A DNA stretch of 54,087 nucleotides, taken from positions 1 through 54,087 of IMG/VR virus record IMGVR_UViG_3300021368_001403. The stretch is one strand, 5' to 3'. This stretch comes from a virus. The position numbers and the translations under genes were made by a program. Under the pieces are notes generated by a model that saw only the letters and a program-made list of their open reading frames with translations, was not told the DNA's origin and did not search any database. Below are positions 36,087-38,069 of this stretch, piece after piece; the stretch's first letter is position 1, and each line of letters starts with the position of its first letter.

Positions 36087-36677
36087 TTACCAGTGTTCGG
36101 GGTTGGATATGCCACTTTGAATAGTGGTCGTATTTGGACTCATATCACCACGATGGAAGTTAAAGTTAATCAACACACGTCGTTCTGGCGTGGTAAATGG
36201 TGTTGCAGCATGTTGATATGATGATGGAAACTCAACAAATCTATTTGCTTTAGTTTCAATCTCCAACGGATCACCATCATTGTCCAGTACAGTACAACCA
36301 TCACTATCATGTAGATAATAAATGCCAGTCGTACATTCAAATGGTACATCAGTGTGCCATGCACGTTGTTCCATGGTATTAATATCCGTACGCCAATTAC
36401 AATTAGCGCGGATACGTACTAGTCCTGCTGGTTTAATACGTGCAATCAATGGATCAACATATCTAAATGCAGTTGTATTCACCATTGGTGTACCAACATG
36501 TAGTTCTGGTCCTCTCTTTTCAGAGTAGAATACATGTTCCATGAGTGGATATCCTCCACCATAGTTACCAATCCAGTACCATGCCATTTCATTGCCCATG
36601 ATAAAACCTTTGATAAGATTAAAATCTTCTTGTGGCATGTAATCATCAGTAATGATGACCTTACTTTCATCAATCAT
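36087..36677 (-). CDS. 2OG-Fe(II) oxygenase (prolyl-hydroxylase-like)
   Basis: 196 residues with the full motif set: His108-x-Asp110 (AWHTDVPFECTTGIYYL), His156 (FPSSYQHAATPF) and Arg166 or 167 (PERRVLINFNFH). This is the canonical HxD...H metal triad plus the 2-oxoglutarate arginine, so it is one of the two most convincing oxygenases in the window. Family members hydroxylate protein side chains or nucleic acids; the substrate here cannot be told. It overlaps the upstream 172-residue gene (ATGA) and ends just before the promoter of the next unit. Confidence 0.85.
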   Translation of the reverse strand: MIDESKVIITDDYMPQEDFNLIKGFIMGNEMAWYWIGNYGGGYPLMEHVFYSEKRGPELHVGTPMVNTTAFRYVDPLIARIKPAGLVRIRANCNWRTDINTMEQRAWHTDVPFECTTGIYYLHDSDGCTVLDNDGDPLEIETKANRFVEFPSSYQHAATPFTTPERRVLINFNFHRGDMSPNTTTIQSGISNPEHW

Positions 36678-37192
36678 CTGTTAACGTATCGTTGTATGCG
36701 TACTGAACCAGTGAGTGGATCATCCAGTGGTACACTGATGTAACACTGTAATTTATAGTCACGTGGTTTGAGTTGTTGTCTTTCAATTTGATCTACCGCG
36801 TGATCAAAACACATGTACCATGATAAGTTAAACTTACCAGTACGTGGTTCTAATCTCCACGGAAATGGGTTATGTGGAAAGAGTTCTTTCTTACTAGAGC
36901 GCGTGTGTTTAACTCCACGATCCTTGCTGTTCTGGCGAGTGGTAGACTTGACTGAGGGTTTCGCGGAACTCTTTGCCTTCGCTCTCACTTTCGTACCAGA
37001 ACTTGTCCCAGTCTTCTTCTGTTCCTTCTGTGATGTTAGTTTCTCTAGATTCTTCTTCAGATTCTTCTGAGTACTTGCGGAGCGTGATACTCTCTTCTGA
37101 GATTTCCCAGACGATTTCTGTGCCTGCTTCCCAACCGAGTTGGTTGAGGTACTCTTGCGGGAGCGTGATGTAGAGGTCTTGCGTGTTGTCAT
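36674..37192 (-). CDS. Protein with very basic N-terminus and conserved-looking C-terminal domain
   Basis: 172 residues from the ATG at 37192 (MTTRKTSTSRSRKSTSTNSV); a TTG at 37201 could add three. Residues 1 to about 100 are extremely rich in Lys, Ser, Arg and Thr and share about 284 bases with the SpoVT/AbrB-like gene in another frame. Residues about 103-172 (LFPHNPFPWRLEPRTGKFN, then WYMCFDHAVDQIERQQLK) look like a real folded domain with this phage's usual codons. The full frame may be used as is, or the C-terminal domain may be reached by a +1 frameshift from the overlapping gene. It is coupled to the oxygenase gene (ATGA). Confidence 0.6.
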   Translation of the reverse strand: MTTRKTSTSRSRKSTSTNSVGKQAQKSSGKSQKRVSRSASTQKNLKKNLEKLTSQKEQKKTGTSSGTKVRAKAKSSAKPSVKSTTRQNSKDRGVKHTRSSKKELFPHNPFPWRLEPRTGKFNLSWYMCFDHAVDQIERQQLKPRDYKLQCYISVPLDDPLTGSVRIQRYVNR

Positions 37193-37217
37193 CTCGTTCA
37201 ATCTCTAGGTACGTCAT
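36909..37217 (-). CDS. SpoVT/AbrB-like DNA-binding protein with acidic tail
   Basis: 102 residues from the ATG at 37217, which has GGAGAA about seven bases upstream; a longer start at 37298 lies deep in the previous gene. Residues about 10-50 (LYITLPQEYLNQLGWEAGTE, then ITLRKY) match the SpoVT/AbrB swapped-hairpin domain of bacterial regulators and antitoxins: strand, LPQEYLNQLGW, G-T-E, strand. The tail is very acidic (EESEEESRETNITEGTEEDW). It overlaps the metallopeptidase end by 20 bases and shares most of its length with the 172-residue frame. A role as transcriptional regulator is likely; targets unknown. Confidence 0.75.
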   Translation of the reverse strand: MTYLEIERDDNTQDLYITLPQEYLNQLGWEAGTEIVWEISEESITLRKYSEESEEESRETNITEGTEEDWDKFWYESESEGKEFRETLSQVYHSPEQQGSWS

Positions 37218-37887
37218 AACCGTTCTCCTCCAACCATTGACGTGTGAGTGGTGTGGGTTTATAATCATACCACATTTTACCACGAGCGCACGATGCAAGT
37301 GCTGCTTCTGTCATGCCTTCAGTCTTTCCTGCCCACGTTGCTTCCTTCTCCCATGGAATAGCATGAGGCATACTTTTATATGTGTCAGAAGCAATCTCTT
37401 GCCAGATCATAGGAACTTTCTCCTCATCCATGATGATAGCAATCAAACTATTATCAATGGTGCCTGCCATACAATCTTGTGCAGCATGCCATCCTTCATG
37501 TCTCATTACACTCATGAGTACATGTGGACGATGCATGAATCTCCTATTAAGATAGAAGTTGTTGCTTACAGTATGATAGACACCACGATGTCCTACTGGA
37601 AAGTATTTCTCATCAGCAAGAAATACTTTGACACCAACAGTATGGAGTGAGGTGAGCATATTATTAAACTCACGACTCACATGTGTGAATTTCTCTGGTT
37701 CCTCATATTGAGATGAAATATCCAAGAGTGAATGTACTTCTTTAACACCTTCTGTACACTCTCTAAGGAGCATACAACCCATTGCGTCAAAGGTATAATA
37801 ACCTTTTGTCAGTTTATCTTCATTAGCATCAACTGCAATGGGTGCAACTGTAAATAGCAATCCACTCAGGACTGCAGTCATCTTCAT
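37198..37887 (-). CDS. Exported zinc metallopeptidase candidate
   Basis: 229 residues from the ATG at 37887, chosen because it overlaps the stop of the 61-residue gene (ATGA) and gives a clean signal peptide (MKMTAVLSGLLFTVAPIAVD, cleavage likely after VDA). The zinc motif HEGWH lies at 130-134 (MRHEGWHAAQDCMAG). Downstream acidic residues (WQEIASDTYKSMP and EKEATW) could supply the third ligand. Four Cys residues outside the signal peptide suggest disulfides. Such an enzyme could act in the host periplasm or on cell-wall or surface proteins. The peptidase call is by motif only; the family is not one I can name. Confidence 0.65.
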   Translation of the reverse strand: MKMTAVLSGLLFTVAPIAVDANEDKLTKGYYTFDAMGCMLLRECTEGVKEVHSLLDISSQYEEPEKFTHVSREFNNMLTSLHTVGVKVFLADEKYFPVGHRGVYHTVSNNFYLNRRFMHRPHVLMSVMRHEGWHAAQDCMAGTIDNSLIAIIMDEEKVPMIWQEIASDTYKSMPHAIPWEKEATWAGKTEGMTEAALASCARGKMWYDYKPTPLTRQWLEENGYDVPRD

Positions 37888-38069
37888 TTGAAAGGACATA
37901 ACCATGTTTCGTAATCACTTTGTTCAATTCTACCATCCTTGTATAGTATGTCAAGGAAGTATTGCCAATACTTTTGCTTTGCTTCAGTATTGCCACGTAG
38001 TTCGGGATGCCAAACTTTAATCACCTTACGGCAGATCCATACTGCCTCCTTCTTTGTCAGGTATGCCAT
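37884..38069 (-). CDS. Small hypothetical protein
   Basis: 61 residues (MAYLTKKEAVWICRKVIKVW, then WQYFLDILYKDGRIEQSDYE), helical, basic at the N-terminus, several Trp. It overlaps the gene before it by 44 bases and the metallopeptidase start by ATGA. No domain recognised; its tight coupling suggests it is made with the metallopeptidase. Confidence 0.7.
   Translation of the reverse strand: MAYLTKKEAVWICRKVIKVWHPELRGNTEAKQKYWQYFLDILYKDGRIEQSDYETWLCPFK

Follow-up and report, generated by a model that had tools for sequence, protein, structure and literature searches.

A probable pair of same-strand overlapping genes with oppositely charged products in T4-like cyanophages

In the Rz/Rz1 spanin pair of phage lambda, the second gene begins inside the first, on the same strand and in the +1 frame, and over phages two-component spanins are found in embedded, overlapped and separated forms, the second gene often being unannotated (PMC6139136). 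Overlapping genes also share a known composition trait, namely enrichment in C and depletion in T (PMC6195259). In cyanophages, orphan antitoxins exist, e.g. the MazE of S-CREM1 (PMC9964418). The locus analysed here is carried by an IMG/VR virus record of 54,087 bases (the whole stretch is called the window below) and comprises two minus-strand genes, A and B, for which Rz/Rz1 can be regarded as the nearest documented analogue. Both are phage pairs in which the second gene starts internally, on the same strand and in the +1 frame, and often escapes annotation; however, the proteins are unrelated, and B extends past the overlap to encode a folded domain. No spanin signal (a membrane segment in A or a lipobox in B) was seen when the sequences were read by eye. 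With type II antitoxins of the MazE/AbrB fold, A shares the PF04014 domain, but it differs from them by a long, dual-coding acidic tail and by having no toxin of a known family adjacent. As an instance of natural overprinting, the A/B pair would be unusually well sampled: B is found both overlapped and on its own, two partner domains unrelated to each other are known, and peptides encoded outside the overlap serve as controls. The origin of an overlapping gene and the constraint shared by its frames thus become open to direct testing.

Layout of the locus and the start of B

Gene A (36909..37217, minus strand; 102 aa) runs from an ATG at 37217 to a TAA at 36911-36909 and encodes an AbrB/MazE-like domain (residues 15-52) followed by an acidic tail; a Shine-Dalgarno-like GGAGGAG, read from the sequence, is located 7 nt 5' of its ATG (37225..37231, minus strand). 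Gene B (36674..37192, minus strand; 172 aa), in frame A+1, runs from an ATG at 37192, 25 nt within A, to a TGA at 36676-36674, with a further TTG at 37201, and encodes a Lys/Ser/Thr-rich arm followed by a C-terminal domain. The dual-coding overlap, delimited by the B start and the A stop, covers 284 nt or about 94 codons (36909..37192, minus strand), and the preliminary description, which had reported two open minus-strand frames over these bases, gave the coordinates correctly. The upstream gene (37198..37905, minus strand; 235 aa), a PHROG match to phrog_591, stops (37200-37198) after the A start has been passed and 5 nt short of the B ATG. Downstream, the ATG of a gene with a 2OG-Fe(II) oxygenase fold (36087..36677, minus strand; Pfam match) overlaps the B stop in an ATGA junction.

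Judged from sequence comparison, A and B are very probably two independent, separately translated genes overlapping on the same strand. A would yield a small protein of the AbrB/MazE fold whose acidic tail is disordered, and B would be initiated at its own ATG within A, in the +1 frame, to yield a basic disordered arm and then, past the A stop, a small folded domain. Ribosomes for the B start may be delivered by the Shine-Dalgarno site of A or, alternatively, may re-initiate after the stop of the upstream gene.

The arrangement is widely kept. An overlap of at least 50 codons is present in 76 of the 90 distinct B loci, with B in phase A+1 in all 76, the B loci being phylogenetically related and counts drawn from them not independent. 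In most of them the B ATG lies 7-46 nt within A: it follows the A ATG by 7 nt in 25 loci, where the sequence is ATGATTAATG or closely similar, and by 16-55 nt in the other loci with an identified A ATG. In most loci the Shine-Dalgarno match at the B ATG is weak at best; the stop of the upstream gene is often no more than ~35 nt away from the B start, a closeness that would suit coupled re-initiation. All complete overlapped loci have an open B frame with an ATG far upstream.

As an alternative to overprinting, the preliminary description had proposed a programmed +1 frameshift at the A stop (AGT TAA A), which would fuse A to the C-terminal domain, the B arm never being translated. The frame relation (+1) is right for such an event, and the C-terminal domain indeed has no ATG in its frame from the A stop up to its WYM segment; the frame as a whole, however, possesses its own ATG at 37192, which makes a frameshift unnecessary. 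Among relatives the frame relation is kept but the position of the A stop is not: relative to the FP motif of the B core it varies from -52 to +32 nt (84 nt), and it is found in 36 different 7-nt contexts with no shared slippery site. In 11 loci A ends inside the B core (32 nt), so that a product shifted at this point would lack the beginning of the fold. Upstream of the A stop, the B frame is open from an ATG onwards and restricts the bases at the third positions of A, although a frameshift would require neither the upstream ATG nor the open frame, and some genomes have B without A. Since the conserved shift site and stop position of a frameshift product are absent, this reading is rejected, its probability being minute.

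B occurs without the overlap in S-SM2, ACG-2014f, S-T4, S-SKS1 and several IMG/VR contigs, the loci without a long overlap being L036-L039, L080, L081, L092/L094 and L107/L111. Homologues whose C-terminal domain has its own start had been put forward as evidence against overprinting; they are found in a few phages, and there they point to B as an independent gene rather than to a false overlap. In L107 and L111 (both at 1489-1692), B has 68 residues and starts right after the phrog_591 gene, A being absent, possibly a pre-overlap or reduced state.

Selection in the two frames

Both frames are shown computationally to be conserved and under selection, with no frameshift needed. With phage codon usage, the +1 frame of the A protein at the window locus would be open with a probability of 0.027; over the 76 loci, given each A protein and the codon usage of the window, this probability has a median of 0.017 and a maximum of 0.22, and the product of the 76 values is no probability because the loci are related. 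Values that are not tiny, together with Glu codons that read as Lys or Arg in the +1 frame, are compatible with a reading in which A alone codes in the overlap, the open B frame arising incidentally from codon bias and a tail rich in E, S and T.

Depletion of T at the third positions of A is better evidence. The window overlap has 9 such T against 33.6 expected (z = -7.1), a signature found nowhere else in the window. Third positions of A comprise 10.6% T and 44.5% C in the overlap vs 36.1% T and 19.6% C in flanking ORFs, and T is lower in the overlap at 66/66 loci. As position 3 of A is position 2 of B, avoidance of T in A amounts to avoidance of hydrophobic residues in B. This codon skew is confined to the overlap, and identical peptides encoded elsewhere are unskewed: A-tail motifs have T in 11/502 codons within the overlap vs 20/60 outside, the outside copies counted being those of L066, L123, L124 and L125, with the overlapped copy of L127 left out. 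In addition, a motif of the B arm, TQxxLxKNLxxL, is conserved over two unrelated classes of A, and the substitution pattern presented below rejects coding by A alone. The by-product explanation is therefore very improbable, and equally so is its companion assumption that the C-terminal domain is reached from some other start.

In 33 disjoint pairs, substitutions per codon position B1/B2/B3 are 0.123/0.145/0.197 in the overlap and 0.109/0.070/0.261 in the part where B is alone. Coding by A only is rejected (p ~1e-37), as is coding by B only (p ~6e-18), where all substitution p-values are indicative because the loci are related and where the alignment, guided by B, favours B for distant pairs. 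Nine ungapped close pairs, which are free of this alignment bias, agree with this result: substitutions at A1/A2/A3 number 42/17/41 in the overlap, and 19/9/59 in the B-only part. Weaker constraint in the disordered arm than in the folded core may explain part of the rejection of B only. The substitutions between relatives fit two coding frames. The comparison of constraint in both frames advocated in the preliminary description thus leaves neither single-frame pattern standing, and overprinting of an acidic tail by a basic arm, the first of its two explanations, gains strong support from conservation, codon choice and substitution pattern.

The two proteins, their charge and their possible functions

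A matches PF04014 (MazE/AbrB; 4.5e-7, 30.2 bits vs a curated cut-off of 24.7), which, with the GGAGGAG upstream, bears out its earlier characterization as an AbrB-like protein with an acidic tail and a good ribosome site. All 20 scanned A proteins of the AbrB class match this family (E <= 0.1), and a homologue is named 'antidote-toxin recognition MazE' in one phage record. A second class, of the MINVxxxxDGSFTIxWDENDP type, has an N-terminal domain that does not align with the AbrB-like one, and profile comparison of the two classes gives an alignment in the tails alone; the B arm overlies both classes, with its motif common to both. Modules of the acidic tail (EATxxDWEDFWYNSESEGKE, SPEATGSW) are also present in unrelated cyanophage genes, without the codon bias of the overlap (L123:732-875, L124:795-1256 and L125:798-1004), and look like shuffled linear motifs.

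The basic arm of B is present as described before, although with ~95 rather than 100 residues. AlphaFold2, run with 51 B sequences, predicts a core at residues 91-151 (36740..36922, minus strand; block means of pLDDT 88-95), in the order strand-strand-strand-helix-strand, and an arm that is disordered apart from a helix at residues 39-54 (37031..37078, minus strand), which carries the conserved TQxxLxKNLxxL motif. F105, P106 and H131 are invariant across the 51 sequences. B and its core match PHROGs 23641, 1609 and 3790, all families of unknown function, while Pfam, NCBIfam and PDB sequence searches with B gave no credible match and a PDB fold search with the core gave no match. In a library of viral protein folds (E <= 0.001), the core matches only uncharacterised cyanophage proteins, the best matches being from P-SSM7, ACG-2014c, S-CAM8 and S-SKS1.

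Histone-H1-like proteins of phages and bacteria have a long disordered tail rich in Lys, Ser, Thr and Ala beside a small domain. B resembles them in combining a tail with a small domain, a likeness of composition with no match in sequence or fold. Its composition and charge suggest that B is probably a nucleic-acid-binding protein, for which the PDB fold search returned no supporting match; the arm would bind DNA or RNA, like a small histone-like protein, and the core would give specificity or protein contacts. In S-SM2, ACG-2014f and S-T4 the core is N-terminal, with a basic C-terminal tail of +16 to +19 after it. In the loci L037, L038 and L039, relatives of the B core carry a non-homologous C-terminal basic tail in place of the N-terminal arm. 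An unrelated basic tail at the other end in three phages makes a charged tail seem needed. It seems that such tails were gained at one end of the core or the other, which suggests that their charge is under selection and would fit a role in binding nucleic acid or an acidic partner.

Net charges over the overlap are -20 for A and +24 for B in the window, and on average about -17 and +22. About 46% of the Lys and Arg residues of B are positioned over Glu of A. The genetic code itself accounts for much of this mirror: where A has the Glu codons GAA/GAG, B has AAN/AGN, most of which specify Lys, Arg or Ser. Part of the basic character of the arm thus follows automatically from its place in the +1 frame of a protein rich in Glu. 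These points bear on the reading of A and B as a toxin-antitoxin-like or charge-neutralising pair, in which the A tail binds the B arm and A acts as a MazE-like antidote, a question of function that is compatible with a real overlap. In keeping with it, the antitoxin gene would come first, A has the MazE/AbrB fold, and net charges are opposite in 76/76 overlapped loci. However, B matches no toxin family, models of toxin families and defence systems giving no credible match for B or for the upstream phrog_591 gene; moreover, the N-terminal domain of A is unrelated in many phages, B is present without A in some genomes, and the charge mirror follows from the code. Such a pair is thus unlikely. 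Overprinting of two separate genes might go further, the overlap being a travelling dual-coding cassette, acidic tail in one frame and basic arm in the other, that is shuffled between phages and has been joined, with both frames kept, to two or more N-terminal domains of A that are unrelated to each other, and its oppositely charged products interacting in the infected cell; this extension is speculative and rather doubtful.

Distribution, annotation and neighbouring genes

A nucleotide search for the B core in the phage collection gave no match, so that protein search was needed to reach its relatives. By the latter the core is found in 265-283 phage records, all of Synechococcus or Prochlorococcus phages, and in 138 IMG/VR stretches. 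The bacterial genome collection has one B locus, in the marine MAG contig TMED61, with an A motif in overlap-style codons; this contig is probably a phage contig. In the annotated records that were read, covering at least 17 Kyanoviridae genera, A is mostly annotated, and B is a gap or is annotated as a fragment. The annotation of T4-like cyanophages thus mostly lacks a gene that is conserved over at least 17 of their genera, and a bias of gene callers against overlaps is the probable reason. The PHROG families already include fragments of B, and no description of the A/B overlap in cyanophages was found in the literature searched.

The neighbouring genes have features of their own. The phrog_591 protein (37198-37905, minus strand) has no Pfam match; an apparent signal peptide and a HEGWH motif of the HExxH type suggest an exported zinc metalloprotease. 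The downstream gene (36087-36677, minus strand) matches phrog_274, which is labelled DNA endonuclease V, yet the Pfam match of the gene is 2OG-FeII_Oxy_3. The name endonuclease V is also given to a gene beside the A/B locus in some phage records, where it is probably a propagated misannotation.
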